From the IMG/VR virus record IMGVR_UViG_3300033553_000834, positions 1 through 23,949 of that record: a DNA stretch of 23,949 nucleotides; one strand, given 5' to 3'. Both the position numbers and the translations under genes were made by a program. The stretch is from a virus. The notes below the pieces were generated by a model. It was not told the origin of the DNA and did not search any database. It worked only from the letters and a program-made list of their open reading frames with translations. Of the stretch, positions 2,337-15,519 are shown in pieces. Every line of letters starts with the position of its first letter. The stretch's first letter is position 1.

Positions 2337-2725
2337 CGCGGCGTGGAACCCCCGAGGCCGATCTGCAGCGTGCCGTTGTGCAGGCGTTACGCGTTGCCCT
2401 GCCGCGCACAGCCATCATCCATCACTGCGCCAATGAAGTGACCGTGGCTGGCCCCCGCGGCGCGAAACGGCAGGCTATCCTCGTCGGCATGGGCGTACAT
2501 GCGGGTTTTGCCGACCTGATGGTGCTCTGCGACGGTCGCGTTCTGTTTCTGGAACTCAAAGCCCCGAAAGGCCGATTGCGCCCCAACCAGGAGGCGTTTC
2601 GCGATGCCGTGCTGGCGCAGGGCTTCGGCTGGGCGCTCGTGCGCTCGCTCGACGACGCGTTGGGCGCATTGGCCGATCACAGGTTCACCAGCCGTGTCCG
2701 CCCAGCGCGGAGGCCTGTGCCATGA
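2333..2725 (+). CDS. VRR-NUC domain nuclease
   Basis: This 130-residue protein covers a stand-alone VRR-NUC domain, a PD-(D/E)XK-type nuclease fold common in phage early regions. The expected active-site pattern is present: E8 in the first helix, GVHAGFADLMVL with D61, LELK with E74 and K76, and Q86 in RLRPNQEAF. Family members cut branched or structured DNA, and phage versions are usually placed in replication or recombination; which substrate this one uses is not visible. It overlaps both neighbours by four bases (ATGA junctions), so it is translationally coupled to the replication-type gene that follows. Confidence 0.88.
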   Translation: MTRRGTPEADLQRAVVQALRVALPRTAIIHHCANEVTVAGPRGAKRQAILVGMGVHAGFADLMVLCDGRVLFLELKAPKGRLRPNQEAFRDAVLAQGFGWALVRSLDDALGALADHRFTSRVRPARRPVP

Positions 2726-3774
2726 GCCATGAAGCCACCAACTGGGCGATCAAGCAGCGGGGGTTGAAGCCCACCACCAAGATCGTGCTCTGGCATCTTT
2801 GCGACCGGTTCAACCCGGATTATGGCTGTTTCCCGTCGCAGGCGCGGCTGGCGCACGACTGCGAAATCAGCCGGGCAACGCTGAACCGCCACCTCGACGG
2901 GTTGGAAGCACGCGGACTCATTCGTCGGCTCAGGGTGATAGACCCCAAGACCGGGCAGCAGCGCCCCACCCGCTATCTGCTGGGCTGCGAGCCAGGGTTT
3001 ACGCCCCGCGGACCGGGCCAAATTGAGGGTGATCCAGCCAATCCCTTCGAGGCAGGCGCGGTTAAAACCCCGTGTCCGGATTTGAGACACGGGTCACTTG
3101 CCGAAAAATCGGATATCGACAACGGCTTGTCGTCCGAGACAGACCCGAACCCGTGTGTCATTTCCGGACACGGGTCCGTGTCTCAATTTGGCGCAAACCC
3201 GTGTCTCAAAAATGACCAATCCCGTGTCTCAAATTGCGACACTAACCTTGTAAGAGAACCCCTAAGTAAACCTGTAAAGGAGGAGGAGGACGCGGCTGCG
3301 CGCGATTCCGATTCTGATCGGCTCTTTGACGAGCTGCTCTCGGCGCTGGGCTTTGCCGCCAACGCGACCCTCCCGGCCTGGTGGCAGGGCTGGCCAGCGC
3401 GGACCCATGTGCGGCGATGGATCGATCACCTCGGGTTGTCTGAGAACCGGATCATCGAGGTCGCGGCCGAAACCCGGAACGAACACCCCGATCCGCCCGA
3501 TGGACCGAAAGCGCTGGATCGGTTCATGGAACGCGCCGCCCAGCGCGATGCGCAGGCGGCTGCCGCAAATGTCAGCGCCCTGAAATCCAAGCGCAGCCGC
3601 AAGGCCCAAGGAAAGCCGCCACCCAGCCCGGATGAACTGGCGAAATTCTACGCGTCCAAGGTCAACTCCGAGGAATACCTGCCCAATGGCATGATCAGCA
3701 ACGCCATGTGCGAGGCGATGCTGGCCCGCAGGTTGGTGACAGCGGACAGGCTGCGTCAGCGGGGAGTGCGGTGA
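2722..3774 (+). CDS. Winged-helix replication initiator-like protein with intragenic iterons
   Basis: This 350-residue protein probably binds the phage origin. Residues about 1-95 form a helix-turn-helix of the HTH_36/replication-protein type: a conserved start with NWAIKQRGLKPTTKIVLWHL, a GCFPSQARLAHDCEISRATLNRHL recognition region, and a basic wing. Residues about 95-200 are a low-complexity linker, and about 200-300 form a second, helical domain containing PAWWQGWPARTHVRRW. The linker is encoded by DNA holding seven copies of a CCCGTGTC-type repeat (see 3068-3238), the arrangement known from the lambda O gene, where the origin lies inside the initiator gene. The start overlaps the nuclease stop (ATGA). 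No helicase loader was recognised next to it. Direct function is inferred, not shown. Confidence 0.7.
   Translation: MSHEATNWAIKQRGLKPTTKIVLWHLCDRFNPDYGCFPSQARLAHDCEISRATLNRHLDGLEARGLIRRLRVIDPKTGQQRPTRYLLGCEPGFTPRGPGQIEGDPANPFEAGAVKTPCPDLRHGSLAEKSDIDNGLSSETDPNPCVISGHGSVSQFGANPCLKNDQSRVSNCDTNLVREPLSKPVKEEEDAAARDSDSDRLFDELLSALGFAANATLPAWWQGWPARTHVRRWIDHLGLSENRIIEVAAETRNEHPDPPDGPKALDRFMERAAQRDAQAAAANVSALKSKRSRKAQGKPPPSPDELAKFYASKVNSEEYLPNGMISNAMCEAMLARRLVTADRLRQRGVR
3068..3238 (+). repeat. Iteron-like repeat cluster (candidate replication origin)
   Basis: CCCGTGTC or a one-mismatch variant occurs at 3068, 3150, 3175, 3198 and 3221 on the plus strand and at 3086-3093 and 3167-3174 on the minus strand. 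The last three direct copies are exactly 23 nt apart and share the longer unit CCCGTGTCTCAAATTG with small changes. The first four copies form two inverted pairs with near-equal spacing. A stretch with lower GC than its surroundings (about 3239-3280) follows and could be the unwinding region. Confidence 0.75.
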
Positions 3775-5021
3775 ATGGCCTGGTGTCACGTCCCCGGCAC
3801 GGATTGTCCCTCTGCGCAGGCGGCGGTGGCCTTGATCTGGGCCTCATGCTCGCCGAACCCGGATATCACACCCGCGCCTTTGTCGAGTGGGAGGACTGGC
3901 CCCGAACTGTGCTCATCGCCGCCCAGCGCGGGGGGTATTTCGCCCCTGCGCCAATCTGGGATGATCTGCGCAGCTTCGATGCCCGGCCCTTTCATGGAGC
4001 CTTCGACATCGTCCTCGCCGGATATCCCTGCCAGCCCTTCAGCGCAGCCGGAAAACGCGGCGGTGCCGACGATCCCCGCCACCTCTGGCCCGAGGTCGCC
4101 CGCGTCATTCGGGAGTGCCGCCCCGAATGGGTCTTCCTTGAGAACGTCGCTGGGCACGTCACCCTCGGGTTTGAAACCGTGCTGCGTGAGCTTTGCGACT
4201 TGGGCTACACGCCTGCGGCGGGCCTGTTCAGCGCGGCAGAAGTCGGCGCGCCGCACCAGCGGCAGCGCGTCTTCATCCTGGCCCACACCAATGAGCCTGC
4301 ATCCCGGCACGGCCACCTACAACCCGGCGGGCAACAGCGATTTCACCCGCAAGGCCGAAGCACTGGCGCTGGGCATAACGAACTGGTCGACGCCCAAGGC
4401 GACAGATGGCGCGAAGGGCGGTCCGGGGCAGAGCAATGGTTCGGGCGGGATGCCTCCCCTGCCAGCACAGGCAGCACAGTGGCAGACGCCGGTGGCGGAC
4501 GATCGAGTCGACCGGCTGCGCGGCAAGATCAACAGCCGGGGCGAGCCGAAGCTGAGCGCGCAGTCACTCCAGTGGCCGACACCGGCGGCGCAGAACTGGA
4601 AGGGCAGCAGCGCGGCGAGCGTGACGCGGGCGGATGGCAAAAGCCGGATGGATATCCTGCATTATCGGGCGGAACAGGGCTTCACCCACCCGGACCCGGT
4701 GATCACGCCGCATGGGCGGCGGCCCTCGCGGCACGCCCCGATCTCGCGCCCGCTCTGGGCTTCGATGATTGCCTCGCATGGGCGGGCCGTCTCGCGGCGC
4801 GTCCTGAAAGCCCGGGCACGGCAGCGGCTCAATCCACTCTTCGTCGGATGGCTGATGGGCTGGCCCATCGGGCACGCGCTCTGCGCCTGCTCGGCAATGG
4901 AGTTCACCCTCTGGCAGCGGCACATGCGTGGCGCACTCTCGCAGCTGCCCATGGCCTCGGGCCCGTGGATCTGGCGACCGAGCGAGGGGCCGGAGAGCCC
5001 AGCGCAGATGACTCTCTTTGA
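3771..5021 (+). CDS. C5 cytosine DNA methyltransferase
   Basis: The product transfers a methyl group from SAM to C5 of cytosine. From the GTG at 3771 the protein has 416 residues: motif I SLCAGGGGLDLG (about 13-24), catalytic PCQPFS with C87, ENV at 124-126, QRQRVF at 163-168, a variable region with repeated VADA/VADT, and motif X LLGNGV with G375-N376. GTG overlaps the upstream stop (GTGA); GGGGAG lies at 3761-3766. The frame is open back to 3708, but those codons lie inside the previous gene. From about 4290 onward this frame has a poor third-position G/C pattern, while a +1 frame has a strong one (see 3775-5037). A phage orphan methylase protecting phage DNA is the likeliest role; the target site is unknown. 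Confidence 0.85.
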   Translation: MNGLVSRPRHGLSLCAGGGGLDLGLMLAEPGYHTRAFVEWEDWPRTVLIAAQRGGYFAPAPIWDDLRSFDARPFHGAFDIVLAGYPCQPFSAAGKRGGADDPRHLWPEVARVIRECRPEWVFLENVAGHVTLGFETVLRELCDLGYTPAAGLFSAAEVGAPHQRQRVFILAHTNEPASRHGHLQPGGQQRFHPQGRSTGAGHNELVDAQGDRWREGRSGAEQWFGRDASPASTGSTVADAGGGRSSRPAARQDQQPGRAEAERAVTPVADTGGAELEGQQRGERDAGGWQKPDGYPALSGGTGLHPPGPGDHAAWAAALAARPDLAPALGFDDCLAWAGRLAARPESPGTAAAQSTLRRMADGLAHRARALRLLGNGVHPLAAAHAWRTLAAAHGLGPVDLATERGAGEPSADDSL

Positions 5022-5037
5022 AGGATTGCTGCCATGA
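3775..5037 (+). CDS. Overlapping +1-frame ORF with methylase-type C-terminus
   Basis: A 420-codon uninterrupted frame covers the whole methyltransferase gene. Its first ~170 residues are Ser/Pro/Ala-rich and look like a shadow. From about 4280 on it looks like real protein: strong G/C at third positions, repeated W-x-T-P units (WPTP, WSTP, WQTP, WPTP), then LNPLFVGWLMGWPIG, MRGALSQLP and a QMTLF tail. From memory, such tails occur in phage cytosine methylases. The stop overlaps the next gene's start (ATGA at 5034-5037), as the other early genes do, and GGGGAG lies 8 nt before the ATG at 3775. An ATG at 4291 has no ribosome site. It may be an overprinted gene, the 3' half of a frameshifted methylase, or a decayed frame. 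Confidence 0.45.
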   Translation: MAWCHVPGTDCPSAQAAVALIWASCSPNPDITPAPLSSGRTGPELCSSPPSAGGISPLRQSGMICAASMPGPFMEPSTSSSPDIPASPSAQPENAAVPTIPATSGPRSPASFGSAAPNGSSLRTSLGTSPSGLKPCCVSFATWATRLRRACSARQKSARRTSGSASSSWPTPMSLHPGTATYNPAGNSDFTRKAEALALGITNWSTPKATDGAKGGPGQSNGSGGMPPLPAQAAQWQTPVADDRVDRLRGKINSRGEPKLSAQSLQWPTPAAQNWKGSSAASVTRADGKSRMDILHYRAEQGFTHPDPVITPHGRRPSRHAPISRPLWASMIASHGRAVSRRVLKARARQRLNPLFVGWLMGWPIGHALCACSAMEFTLWQRHMRGALSQLPMASGPWIWRPSEGPESPAQMTLFEGLLP

Positions 5038-5699
5038 GCATGCAGGGACGGATTGCCCGCGCGGGCGGGGCAAAGGTGAAACGCGTGCTGGGCGTGCAGG
5101 CGGCGCTCGAATGGGCGTTCCGGATAGAAAAGGCGCAGTTGGAACTGCCCCCACCAAAGGACGTGGTCGAAGAAGGCTTCGGGTTTGGCCTGGAATATGT
5201 CCTGATGCAGCGTGCTGCGCTGGGCTGCAAGGTCGACGGCGGCCAGCACAAGATGGGCAGCTACACCCACGCGGATGCCGAGGTCATCGCCGCCACCGTC
5301 GCCGGGATGCCGGACAGCATGGGCGGCATCCGCATGGCAATCCGCGTGGCCGAACTGGCCCGCGCCGGACTGACGCCTGACTGGATGCCAGGGGCTGTGC
5401 CGCGCTGCGTCCCAGTGGAAACGCGGCAAAATCAGCATGGCGTTCGGGCCGTGACGCAAGTTGTGGGCACTGAACGGGTACTGTCCCGAGGGAAATGGCG
5501 TACGGTCGAGGTTCTGGCCTGCCCGGTCACCTGGCGCCCGCATCCGGAGCAGATCGCCTCCGCCCGGCGCGACTATGAGGATTGGTGGCAGGCGCTGGAT
5601 TGGGTGCGCGATGGGTTGGTGGTGGGCGGAATGCTGCGGGAGGTTGAGGTGACGGCGGCGATGCCGAAAGTGCGGCCATGGCAGGCCCGCAAGGCATAA
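5034..5699 (+). CDS. Hypothetical phage protein
   Basis: This 221-residue protein is not recognised. The start overlaps the stop of the +1-frame ORF (ATGA), with a GAAGGA ribosome site about 8 nt upstream, so it closes the early operon. The N-terminal third is basic and helical, containing RIARAGGAKVKRVLGVQAALEWAF. The middle has YTHADAEVIAATVAGMP, and the C-terminal third is rich in Trp (TWRPHPEQI, YEDWWQALDWVRDGL). The shape suggests a soluble DNA-binding or regulatory protein, possibly an early-to-late switch given its place at the end of the early genes, but no motif proves this. No membrane segment or signal peptide is seen. Confidence 0.7.
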   Translation: MSMQGRIARAGGAKVKRVLGVQAALEWAFRIEKAQLELPPPKDVVEEGFGFGLEYVLMQRAALGCKVDGGQHKMGSYTHADAEVIAATVAGMPDSMGGIRMAIRVAELARAGLTPDWMPGAVPRCVPVETRQNQHGVRAVTQVVGTERVLSRGKWRTVEVLACPVTWRPHPEQIASARRDYEDWWQALDWVRDGLVVGGMLREVEVTAAMPKVRPWQARKA

Positions 5700-5785: not shown

Positions 5786-7323
<1,538 letters not shown>

Positions 7324-7327
<4 letters not shown>

Positions 7328-8604
7328 CAGCGTGGACAACTGAAACGCTGGAAAGCTGTCTGGAGGCTTTGCTCGACTATCGCGGTAAGAGTCCGACCAA
7401 ATCCGAGTCGGGCATCCCCGTTTTGTCAGCCAAGGTTGTCAAAACCGCTGGATTATTGCGTCCGATCGAACAAACAATCGCGCCAGATTATTATCCCAAG
7501 TGGATGACGCGCGGTTTTCCGATGCCGGGCGACGTAGTGATGACAACAGAGGCCCCTCTCGGTGAAGTAATCCAACTAGACGAAGAAACTGCGTCATTCG
7601 CTCTAGGCCAGCGTCTCGTTTGTCTTCGAGGCAAGGCCGGAAAGCTGGACAACACTTTCCTGCGCTATCTCTTAACCTCGCCCGGCCAGCAAGAGGTTCT
7701 TGCAAATCGTGCTACTGGCACAACTGTATTAGGGATTAGCCAAAAGACGCTTCGATCAATGCCAATCGCCTTTCCGGAGTTCTCGGAACAGCAGAGAATA
7801 GGCGATTTGCTTGCAACGCTGGATGACAAGATCGAGTTGAACCGGCGGATGAACGAGACGCTGGAGGCCATGGCGCGGGCGCTGTTCCGCGACTGGTTCG
7901 TCGACTTCGGCCCCACCCGCGCCAAGATGGCAGGCACCGCCCGCTACCTCTCCCCCGACCTCTGGTCCCTCTTCCCCGACAGCCTCGACGACGATGGCAA
8001 GCCGGAGGGGTGGGCGGAGAAGCCACTGGACGAGATTGCCAATTTTCTGAATGGCCTCGCCCTGCAGAAATTTCCCGGTGAGAATGAGGCCGACAGCCTT
8101 CCAGTGATCAAAATCGCCGAACTCCGGAACGGTATTACTGCCAAGTCAAATCGCGCTTCGCGCAAGGTGCCGTCGCAATACGTCATTCAAGACGGCGACT
8201 TCCTGTTTTCTTGGTCAGGCAGCTTGCTCGCCAAGTTCTGGACTGGCGGTGAGGGCGCATTGAATCAGCACTTATTTAAAGTCTCATCGGACCGTTACCC
8301 CGCATGGTTTTTCAGTGAATGGGTCCAGCGCCATCTGGAAGAGTTCCAGATCATTGCCGCATCCAAGGCCACGACGATGGGCCACATTCAGCGCGGGCAT
8401 TTGAAAGCCGCCACGACGATCTGCCCGCCTGATCCCATAGTCGAACGATTGGGCGACATAATGGCACACTTGATTGATCGGATGATCCACAACGAACTGG
8501 AATCCCGCACCCTCGCCCAGACCCGCGACCTTTTGCTGCCGCGCCTGATGTCGGGCGAAGTGATGGTTTCAGAAACCGCTAACGAGCCGGAGGTAGAGGC
8601 TTGA
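7324..8604 (+). CDS. hsdS: Type I restriction-modification system, specificity subunit HsdS
   Basis: This 426-residue subunit sets the bipartite DNA target of both restriction and modification. It shows the usual two-half structure: target-recognition domain 1 (about 1-150), a conserved helical spacer (about 153-198, with [21 protein letters not shown] and [16 protein letters not shown]), target-recognition domain 2 (about 230-395), and a C-terminal conserved helix ending in [13 protein letters not shown]. The two halves differ, as expected for an asymmetric target. It is complete, coupled to hsdM by ATGA and to the next gene by TTGA. The target sequence cannot be read from the protein by eye. 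Confidence 0.95.
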
Positions 8605-9361
8605 GCAGTGATTGGTATCCGGGCATCGAGCGGTTCTGCGGGCATTGGAAACATGCACCGATGCTGCAACAGACATTCGAGACGCTGAAACAGACCTTTG
8701 CGGAAGGCAACGATGCCTGCATTGATGCATCCAAAAGCCTTGTAGAATGTGCTTGCCGTGTCATCATTGAAAACCTTGACGATCCCGTGAACCCGATCAA
8801 GGGTTGGAAAGACAGTCCAGTCAAGGCCGAGATGCCAGGTTTCAAGGACTGGGTCTCTGCCGCGCTCCGCCTGCTGGAATTGACTGAAAGTCGCGATGAC
8901 CCGTTTAGCAAGCTCCTGTCACAGCACTTCAAGCTGGTGGATGAACTGGGACGCTTTCGAAATCTCGCTGGACCCATCAGTCATGGCAAACAAGGCTTCG
9001 CGCAAAAGCTTTCCGCCCACCACCGGCGCGCCGCGCTGTTGGCCGCCGACGCATTGGTTACCTTCTTACATGAGGCCTATCTGGAGCGTGAGCCTGACCC
9101 GGTTTTGACATTTGAACCATATGAACTGTTCCCGCGGTCGAATGCCATCATAGATTTCCATGTAGAGGCGGATGCGGCAGGAAACGAGGACGGCTGGGTT
9201 GATTTATCCTTTCGTCTGCCGGACGGTGAAACGCTCGACATAAGTGTCGAACCATCCCGCCTACTTTTTGGTGTTGATCGTGAAGCATACAAGTATGTTC
9301 TAGGTTTGTGCCGAGACGCTTCACTGCCTCCAGAGGAAGATACTCCAGGGGAGGCGGCGTG

Positions 9362-9362
<1 letters not shown>
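8601..9362 (+). CDS. Abi_C-like protein within the Type I RM operon
   Basis: This 253-residue protein lies between hsdS and hsdR. It contains [11 protein letters not shown] (R120 to K130) followed by a long helix ([21 protein letters not shown]). This matches the RN-x(6)-HGK pattern of the Abi_C (abortive infection C-terminal) domain, which resembles the HEPN fold; RNase activity is a possibility, not something shown here. The C-terminal ~90 residues form a separate acidic domain. The start appears to be TTG at 8601, overlapping the hsdS stop, because the conserved-looking N-terminus [14 protein letters not shown] lies before the first ATG (8661). Its stop overlaps the hsdR ATG (TGATG). It probably adds a second layer of defence or controls the RM system; the role is inferred. 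Confidence 0.75.
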
Positions 9363-12496
<3,134 letters not shown>

Positions 12497-12520
12497 ACAG
12501 GCCATCAAGGACATATTATA

Positions 12521-13726
12521 ATGAGCGTAAAATTGTTGAACGCGAAGGCCGTCGCAAAACGCCTTGAGCAACTTATTGAGGATCACGAAGAAATCCATGT
12601 TGCGGTGGCGTGGGGCTACAATGGCCATCTCGCCGATTGCCTGCTGCGCAACAAGCATAAGTTCTCCTCCGTAACTTTCGGCTTGGCCTTTTGTCAGACA
12701 GACCCCGACCTCATTGATCGCCTGATTGGGATCAAGAATGCTTTCGTGGCGGACAGCGGCAACAAGACATTTCATCCGAAACTATACTATTTTCGGACGG
12801 GAGAAGTCGCCGAGGCAATCATTGGAAGCTCGAACTTCACGACAGGGGGAATGGATAAGAACTGGGAAGCCAGCGTCCACATCAAGGGGCCATGGACTGC
12901 TCAAATTTTCAAGCAGGCTCGCGAGTGCCTCGAAAGCTACGCAGGACTCCGCAAAGTCGTCAGCAAGCACCTAGCCGAGAACTATAGATTGCAGTTCGAT
13001 GCTGCCAAAATGCTGAAAAAGCCTAAACATCCAGTTCTGCCGGGCTCTGGCCTTCCCGGCGCTCAGTTGAACTCGCAATTGGTCAAAATGCGTTGGGATG
13101 AATTCGTCAGCGCAGCGAAGGCCGGTCCGCACCATAACTTCGATACACGCCTCAGCCTTCTTCGCGAATGCCAAAAAATGTTTGCCGGTGTGAAGTCGTT
13201 CGCAGAATTATCCGGAAATCAATGGAAGGCAATCGCCGGAGTAATTGGCGCGAAACAGAAGCTTGACGCGGGACTTGATGGCTATGACTGGGGTTGGTTT
13301 GGTTCGATGAAGGGAATGGGAGATTTTGCCAATCGCATAGCTGAACAAGACGCGTTCCTGGCACGGGCAGTTGATTGCATACCCCGGCACGGCGACATCA
13401 CCAAAGCGCAATATGAGGATTTCTGCGGCAACTTTTTACAGGCATTCAAGAATTCTAGCCGGATTGGAGGCGTGCCGACTGCGACGAGGCTCCTTGCGAT
13501 GAAACGTCCTGATACCTTCGTTTGTATCAGCAAGCCAAACATGACGGGTCTTTCTGATGCGCTAGCGTTTCCAAAGACTACTCTAGACCTCGATAACTAC
13601 TGGGACCGTGTCATTGAACCGATGAGAATTTCACCTTGGTACAATTCCCCACGCCCGGCCGGGCAGAATGCCGAGCTTTGGGATGGCCGCGCTGCTATGC
13701 TCGACGCCATCTACTATGATGGATAG
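12521..13726 (+). CDS. Phospholipase D-fold protein, likely nuclease, with unknown C-terminal domain
   Basis: This 401-residue protein starts 24 nt after hsdR. Residues about 1-130 form a single PLD-type domain: HPK at 85-87 followed by IGSSNFTTGG with N105 and then E116, the H-x-K...N...E pattern of PLD-family nucleases (BfiI and NgoFVII are known restriction examples). Only one HKD-like half is present, so a dimer would be needed. Residues about 180-401 are an unrecognised domain containing IGGVPTATRLLAMKRPDTFVCISKPN. GC content is visibly lower than in the phage genes, which suggests separate acquisition. Its place at the end of the RM operon suggests a helper or an independent defence effector. 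Substrate unknown. Confidence 0.75.
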   Translation: MSVKLLNAKAVAKRLEQLIEDHEEIHVAVAWGYNGHLADCLLRNKHKFSSVTFGLAFCQTDPDLIDRLIGIKNAFVADSGNKTFHPKLYYFRTGEVAEAIIGSSNFTTGGMDKNWEASVHIKGPWTAQIFKQARECLESYAGLRKVVSKHLAENYRLQFDAAKMLKKPKHPVLPGSGLPGAQLNSQLVKMRWDEFVSAAKAGPHHNFDTRLSLLRECQKMFAGVKSFAELSGNQWKAIAGVIGAKQKLDAGLDGYDWGWFGSMKGMGDFANRIAEQDAFLARAVDCIPRHGDITKAQYEDFCGNFLQAFKNSSRIGGVPTATRLLAMKRPDTFVCISKPNMTGLSDALAFPKTTLDLDNYWDRVIEPMRISPWYNSPRPAGQNAELWDGRAAMLDAIYYDG

Positions 13727-14256: not shown

Positions 14257-15519
14257 ATGGACCTTGTCTTCGCGCCAAGCGAGATTGAGACGTGGCCGAT
14301 CGACCGGCTGCGCCCCTATGCTCGCAATGCCAAGATGCACGGCGACGACCAGGTGGCCAAGATCGCCGCCAGCATGGCCAAGTTCGGCTGGACCGTGCCC
14401 TGCATGGTGGCGGACGATGGTGAACTGATCGCCGGGCATGGCCGGGTGCTGGCCGCGACGATGCTTGGGCTGACGGACGTGCCGGTAATCCGGCTCGGCC
14501 ACCTCGATGAGGCCGAACGCAGGGCCTACCGCATCGCCGACAATAAATTAACCGAGCTGGGCGAATGGGACGAGGCCATGCTGCGCGACGAGATCGCGGG
14601 GCTGCTGGCCGAGGATTTCGACCTGTCACTGCTGGGGATCACTGACGAGGATCTGGATGCGCTGCTGCGGGATCCGGATGCGCTGGGCGGGGATGGGCCG
14701 GTCGATGGCGAGGATGACATTCCCGAACCGCCGGTCACGCCGGTGTCGATTCCGGGCGATCTCTGGCAGCTTGGATCGCACCGACTGATCTGTGGCGATA
14801 GCACATCGGCGGAGGTGGTTGGGCGTCTTCTGGGCGATGTAAAGCCGCTGCTGATGGTCACCGATCCGCCCTACGGCGTGGATTACGATCCGTCTTGGCG
14901 CAACCAGACGGGCGCGGCGAAGACCAAACGCACAGGCAAGGTCCTGAACGATGATAGAGCCGACTGGCGCGAGGCATGGGCCCTGTTCCCCGGCGATGTT
15001 GCTTACGTCTGGCATGGCGCACTGCACACCGCGACCGTCGCCGAGAGCTTGGTGGCCGCGGGCTTCGCAGTCCGGTCGCAGATCATCTGGGCCAAGGATC
15101 GGTTGGTGCTGAGCCGCGGCGATTACCACTGGCAGCATGAGCCTTGCTGGTATGCAGTCCGCAAGACCGGAAAGGGCCACTGGGCCGGGGACCGCAAGCA
15201 AACCACGCTCTGGCACATTTCCGGCAAGGACCAGGACGCCGCCACGGTCCACGGGACGCAAAAGCCGGTCGAATGCATGCGCCGCCCGATCCTGAACAAT
15301 TCCAGCCCCGGTCAGGCTGTATTCGAACCCTTCATGGGGTCAGGCACCACGCTGATCGCGGCGGAAACGACGGGTCGCGTCTGCTTCGGAATCGAGTTGA
15401 ACTCAGCCTACGTCGATGTGGCCATCGAGCGATGGCAGCAGTTTACAGGCGCCAACGCTGTGCTGGCCGAAACCGGCGAGACTTTTGCCGATCTTAAGGC
15501 GGAAAGGCTGGGCGCATGA
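14257..15519 (+). CDS. ParB-like/DNA methylase fusion protein
   Basis: This 420-residue two-domain protein starts with a ParB/sulfiredoxin-like domain (about 8-100: IDRLRPYARNAKMHGDDQVAKIAASM, then GHGR at 60-63 and RIADNKL). An acidic linker (about 130-160) leads to a beta-class N4-cytosine or N6-adenine methylase with DPPY at 203-206 and FMGSGTT at 359-365, so motif IV comes before motif I. This architecture is common in phages of alphaproteobacteria. The methylase could protect phage DNA or control packaging and gene expression; the ParB-like part probably binds or cuts DNA or hydrolyses nucleotides. No clear ribosome site precedes the ATG at 14257. It follows a strong terminator, so it needs its own promoter. 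Confidence 0.92.
   Translation: MDLVFAPSEIETWPIDRLRPYARNAKMHGDDQVAKIAASMAKFGWTVPCMVADDGELIAGHGRVLAATMLGLTDVPVIRLGHLDEAERRAYRIADNKLTELGEWDEAMLRDEIAGLLAEDFDLSLLGITDEDLDALLRDPDALGGDGPVDGEDDIPEPPVTPVSIPGDLWQLGSHRLICGDSTSAEVVGRLLGDVKPLLMVTDPPYGVDYDPSWRNQTGAAKTKRTGKVLNDDRADWREAWALFPGDVAYVWHGALHTATVAESLVAAGFAVRSQIIWAKDRLVLSRGDYHWQHEPCWYAVRKTGKGHWAGDRKQTTLWHISGKDQDAATVHGTQKPVECMRRPILNNSSPGQAVFEPFMGSGTTLIAAETTGRVCFGIELNSAYVDVAIERWQQFTGANAVLAETGETFADLKAERLGA

Follow-up and report, generated by a model that had tools for sequence, protein, structure and literature searches.

A C5-cytosine DNA methyltransferase probably encoded as two chains by fully overlapping phage genes

M.EcoHK31I of E. coli (YGGCCR) belongs to a restriction-modification system, and Lee, Kam and Shaw reportedly found in 1995 that its beta chain is read from another frame within the gene for alpha and that both chains are needed. 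This methyltransferase is a naturally split enzyme (PMC3439449), in which the large subunit carries motifs I–VIII and X and the small subunit motif IX, and its predicted target recognition domain (TRD) was assigned to the large subunit (PMC3404938). M.AquI (CYCGRG) is likewise a two-chain C5-methylase, with motifs IX and X on the small subunit, and in M.HhaI the small, site-reading domain is formed by the variable region and motif IX (PMC3404938). M.HhaI and M.HaeIII have a catalytic domain like that of the alpha chain described below, but they consist of one chain read from one frame in the order I–VIII, TRD, IX, X.

The window analyzed here comprises an entire IMG/VR record (23,949 bases), in which a stretch open in two frames was found between a gene for a replication protein (2722–3774) and a small downstream gene. 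The two frames are called A (product alpha) and B (+1, product beta), and their features are listed in Table 1. The best explanation of this locus is a single C5-cytosine DNA methyltransferase made as two chains from fully overlapping genes, of the M.EcoHK31I kind, to which we give a probability of about 0.86.

Table 1. Features of the dual-frame methyltransferase locus, in window coordinates.
Feature	Position	Strand	Remarks
Shine-Dalgarno-like GGGGAG	3761..3766	+	sequence reading; function inferred
Twin start GTGAATG: GTG 3771 (A), ATG 3775 (B)	3771..3777	+	conserved in relatives
Alpha, frame A	3771..5021 (GTG 3771 to stop ending 5021), 416 residues	+	C5-methylase catalytic domain, motifs I–VIII and X, without IX; PF00145
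Beta reading frame, frame B (+1)	3775..5037 (ATG 3775 to TGA 5037)	+	open throughout
Alpha motif I, LSLCAGGGGLDLGL	3804..3845	+	frame A translation
Alpha motif IV, GYPCQPFS, catalytic Cys	4020..4043	+	frame A
Alpha motif VI, ENV	4140..4148	+	frame A
Constrained part of beta	4160..5034	+	frame A synonymous divergence down to 0.15–0.22 from 4160; phrog_27243 / phrog_1008
Alpha motif VIII region, GAPHQRQRVFIL	4242..4280	+	frame A
Beta W-x-T-P repeats	4279–4584	+	within the constrained part, C-terminal half after
Alpha stretch without detectable constraint, predicted disordered linker	4281..4640	+	frame B 4-fold divergence 0.24–0.51; pLDDT ~30
Beta motif IX, LNPLFVGWLMGWPIG	4828..4872	+	read in frame B
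Alpha motif X, LLGNGV	4887..4904 (about)	+	minimum of frame B synonymous divergence, 0.02
ATGA overlap, beta stop / next gene start	5034..5037	+	next gene 5034–5699, phrog_9306

Motifs I, IV (PCQ), VI (ENV) and VIII all lie on the alpha chain, as in C5-methylases (PF00145), and G, N and P of its motif X were invariant in 39 sequences. The PF00145 match of frame A covered residues 12–196 only, and a match to phrog_363 covered residues 12–393, reaching past motif X. Frame B matched phrog_27243 (E 1e-142, function unknown) by its part from 4291 and phrog_1008, named 'DNA methyltransferase' (E 7.6e-12), and gave no Pfam match. The LNP..WLMGWP element of frame B is the motif IX absent from A. Neither C-terminus alone makes a full enzyme, as motif IX is missing from A and motifs I–VIII and X are missing from B, and with motif IX in the +1 frame only the locus differs from a single-chain methylase, where TRD and motif IX share one chain. 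The motif split equals that of M.EcoHK31I: alpha has I–VIII and X without IX, motif IX falls to a second chain, whose production we infer from selection, and beta overlaps alpha in another frame, as is said to be the case for EcoHK31I. Motif X stands in frame A, whereas it is on the small subunit in M.AquI. The window also differs from M.EcoHK31I in being a phage locus, in a beta frame that covers the whole alpha gene and in its twin start. The likeness to M.EcoHK31I described here is one of motif layout, and the TRD is placed here on beta but on the large subunit in PMC3404938.

The preliminary description of this DNA had reported the W-x-T-P repeats, LNPLFVGWLMGWPIG, a QMTLF tail (the C-terminal end reads QMTLFEGLLP) and the ATGA overlap in the +1 frame, and a motif X kept in the original frame; our coordinates and motif assignments bear this out. 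It had also placed the second frame over the 3' half of the gene, where B is indeed open, but B has no stop anywhere in the gene, starting from its ATG. The shift in third-position G/C content (GC3) that it put at about 4280 holds for ~4400 to 4970, where B had the higher values (0.75–0.87 vs 0.54–0.63 for A), but up to ~4340 the two frames were about equal (A 0.66–0.81, B 0.72–0.78).

Both frames are coding and under purifying selection. IMG/VR was searched once per frame, giving 76 and 80 loci, mostly on the same contigs, and the 53 relatives analyzed were those chosen for having both frames intact. Over the overlap these 53 contained no frame A stop, vs 1.8–2.8 expected per sequence if only B coded, as derived from B's own protein and codon usage. 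The frame A stop stays about 15 nt ahead of the frame B stop across the relatives, each of which has several stops in the +2 frame. The unselected set showed an early A stop in L016 and L054 only and a lesion or length change of B in L019, L020 and L071. For the 5' half, the chance of finding no B stop was about 0.1 per sequence. Leu and Val codons before an A never ended in G in the 53 relatives (0 of about 213, the GTG start excepted), compared with 38% and 63% G-ending codons in the neighbouring genes.

Synonymous divergence at 4-fold sites was 0.36 and 0.39 in the flanking genes. Frame B gave 0.24–0.51 over 4276–4640, so frame A is unconstrained there, then 0.09–0.18 over most of 4640–4990 with its minimum of 0.02 at 4882–4905, the position of A's motif X. 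Frame A gave 0.33–0.44 over 3861–4130 and 0.15–0.22 over 4160–4280. From these profiles A is selected as motifs I–VIII plus a C-terminal piece with motif X, whereas selection on B sets in at about 4160. The strongest single piece of evidence is a lower-GC clade of relatives (L249–L328, median GC 0.51), in which frame A synonymous divergence was 0.55–0.68 on both sides of beta and mostly 0.03–0.35 inside it, the edges of the drop coinciding with the start and the stop of beta.

Two further observations concern the 5' part of the window gene. Synonymous divergence in the first 90 nt of frame A (3771–3860) was 0.06–0.16, far under that of the flanking genes, which could reflect a beta N-terminus, an RNA element or both. 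Over 3861–4130 the third positions of A prefer C over G, which those of the neighbouring genes do not; frame B is thereby above expectation in Ser, Pro and Ala and below it in Arg and Trp, a composition that fits a selected disordered spacer.

In its catalytic part alpha resembles M.HhaI (E 4e-38; Foldseek E 5e-14), and its structural model was confident there. At residues 185–310, the place of the recognition domain in a normal enzyme, pLDDT was about 30 and the model disordered. Because the stretch of A between motifs VIII and X is unconstrained, recognition is more likely to be on beta. The AlphaFold2 model of beta (4171–5034) was poor (pLDDT 55), and a PDB profile search with beta returned no solved relative, only a chance match; a target-recognition fold is a candidate assignment for this chain. 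In mycobacteriophage methylases, both single-frame and split, a motif IX precedes X, and the motif IX of beta aligned with it (hhalign 97%, over 21 columns only).

Frame A would thus provide an alpha chain with the SAM-binding and catalytic domain (I–VIII), a predicted disordered linker and a terminal motif X, while frame B would provide a beta chain in which the W-x-T-P region, taken as the target recognition part, is joined to motif IX. As in M.EcoHK31I, the two chains are likely to assemble into a single enzyme for methylation of a specific site, and such methylation probably protects the phage genome from host restriction.

Three other readings of the locus were weighed against the two-chain enzyme. 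The preliminary description had suggested a programmed frameshift that yields two methylases with different C-termini; a +1 shift near 4250–4290 would fuse the N-terminal part of alpha to the C-terminal part of beta and give a form with motifs I–IX beside the full-length A product. The constraint on A's synonymous sites at 4160–4280 lies right before such a frame change, GC3 favours B past ~4400, and in some mycobacteriophages A stops once motif VIII is complete, TRD, IX and X following in +1. But the fused form would lack motif X, and other clades have a beta start with its own Shine-Dalgarno (SD) sequence far upstream of motif VIII. A shift at ~4270 needs no open B before it, whereas in the window clade B is open and avoids stops back to the conserved ATG 3775. 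We consider this mechanism improbable. Somewhat more so is an unrelated overprinted protein in frame B, for instance a regulator or an anti-restriction protein. The missing Pfam match and solved relative and the poor model would suit such a protein, but a methylase motif IX sits exactly where alpha lacks one, relatives of the single-frame Tweety type hold IX and X together, the motif split is the same as in M.EcoHK31I, and the PHROGs family is named DNA methyltransferase, although a name is not functional proof.

Hardly credible is a single functional frame with the other open by chance or through a recent frameshift. GC-rich DNA is poor in stops in some frames, but synonymous constraint in both frames refutes this reading for the overlap 4160–5021, and the layout recurs at GC 0.41–0.57 with motif X conserved in one frame and IX in the other. 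The recent frameshift considered in the preliminary description is refuted, since both frames are open in close relatives and phages that are only very distantly related share the layout; a sequencing error is ruled out by both frames being open and constrained in relatives. Overprinting, the remaining proposal made there, withstood the two checks named for it, homologues for one frame only and stops in close relatives: both frames have homologues, both are open in the 53 close relatives analyzed, and both are constrained.

The two-chain reading leaves the question of where beta starts. In the window, GGGGAG ends 4 nt before the alpha GTG and 8 nt before the beta ATG, and a G-rich stretch is also found upstream in relatives. 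ATG 3775, 4 nt after the GTG of A, was present in 53/53 relatives; no other B start is fully invariant in the Rhodobacteraceae clade to which the window belongs. A start of the form GTGAATG or ATGAATG was found in 78/78 further GTDB loci, chiefly Rhodobacteraceae prophages. Codon 2 of alpha (Asn) is always AAT, whereas AAC is preferred in the rest of the gene (54 to 11). The next codon encodes Gly, Val or Ala and has G as its first base without exception. More distant members keep starts for both frames within 8 nt but with exchanged codons, as read from the printed sequences: beta GTG and alpha ATG in L069 and L076, two ATGs in L074, ATGAATGA in L073 and overlapping GTGs in L154, with nearby starts in both frames also kept in L157, L165 and L241. 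Frame B had no stop in the first 155 codons past motif I in 11/11 divergent members (chance 0.08–0.33 each).

No internal beta start with a classical Shine-Dalgarno sequence was found inside the window gene. Internal candidates at ATG 3961, ATG 3979, ATG 3994, TTG 4171 and GTG 4186 were unconserved (18, 28, 0, 36 and 1 of 53, respectively). ATG 4291 was conserved in 51/53 but has no SD, and it would leave both the constraint at 4160–4290 and the open B upstream unexplained.

The start-region data fit a beta chain whose translation begins at ATG 3775 and passes through a spacer free in sequence, with GGGGAG shared with alpha. An RNA element at the start could also account for the conservation, and the sequences compared are related to one another. 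A twin start, in which one ribosome-binding site serves alpha and beta starts that lie 2–8 nt from each other in different frames, seems to us an evenly balanced proposition; in the window clade beta would then begin 4 nt past the alpha start. If so, the ratio of the two subunits would be determined at a single initiation region, and translation in two frames would cover a 1.25-kb stretch over its full length, the beta spacer being selected but sequence-free. We know of no described enzyme with two subunits made from such a twin start.

Almost every related phage methylase gene that we examined contained the hidden +1 gene. A scan based on a diverse alpha alignment gave 76 analyzable loci (GC 0.41–0.72), in which a pattern search placed motif IX in A in 0/76 and in +1 in 64/76. 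The +1 ORF overlapped A by 141–374 codons vs 27–148 for +2, and at GC 0.41–0.57 it was still much longer than +2. Throughout the lower-GC clade motif IX was in +1 (80/80), with X in A in 79/80; beta had an ATG or GTG start preceded by its own Shine-Dalgarno sequence (such as AAGGA) in 68/80, mostly 50 nt before motif IV. The counts 64/76 and 80/80 do not come from another pattern-based classifier, which missed motif VIII in many loci, and since the samples were drawn with alpha queries of the nested type they are not an estimate of the share among all phage methylases.

The same two frames were found in cyanophage Yong-M2-251 and in Paenibacillus phage Lily (gp62/gp63), whose second frame is annotated 'g62 internal gene', and annotated nested +1 pairs were found in E. 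coli phage K1H (ORF29/ORF28) and in Honeybear (55/56). The pairs of K1H, Lily and Honeybear share the nested +1 layout and the motif split of the window, but their beta starts well inside alpha, and their annotators named no two-subunit enzyme. The K1H annotation reads 'Mte8-like; similar to Bcep6B, N15 and e15', and 'Mte8' may derive from a UniProt entry name for M.EcoHK31I. Partial matches to the K1H alpha DNA were seen in 68 E. coli genomes. On a Sphingomonas plasmid (L165, 1889–2980) automatic annotation had called the beta frame as a gene and missed alpha, and the incomplete gene table of a Roseicitreum plasmid (L161, 1999–3265) has only the beta frame ('DNA methyltransferase') without alpha.

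A sample seeded with Tweety held single-frame, split and nested forms side by side. Tweety (L166) has all motifs in a single frame. In the actinobacteriophages Eagle (L162, 1809–2904), Dylan (L167, 1791–2742) and Upyo (L168, 1801–3070) A is terminated shortly past motif VIII, and TRD, IX and X are in the +1 frame, which is an AquI-like split; Eagle and Dylan look closer to the M.AquI type than the window does.

Defence cargo adjoins the methylase in the window over 5786–13726. It includes the type I restriction-modification genes hsdM (5786–7327), hsdS (7324–8604) and hsdR (9308–12496), an Abi_C protein between hsdS and hsdR (8601–9362) and a weakly NgoFVII/PLD-like protein (12521–13726). A second DNA methylase of the phage (N6_N4_Mtase, PF01555) is encoded at 14257–15519.

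A literature search found no account of a nested alpha/beta pair in phages. The kind of enzyme is already known; how broadly it occurs in phages seems to be undescribed in the papers searched, and so does the twin start. Overprinted catalytic and recognition halves, an oddity of the 1990s, now look like a standard plan among phage C5-methylases. The second gene often escapes annotation, or is entered either with unknown function or as a 'DNA methyltransferase' in its own right (phrog_27243, phrog_1008). If specificity is predicted for a phage methylase from frame A only, the prediction would then be based on a linker and not on the recognition domain. The twin start would make it possible to test how a start is chosen when two frames share a ribosome-binding site, and the series from single-frame Tweety through split Eagle to the nested window could show how a full overlap of subunits originated.
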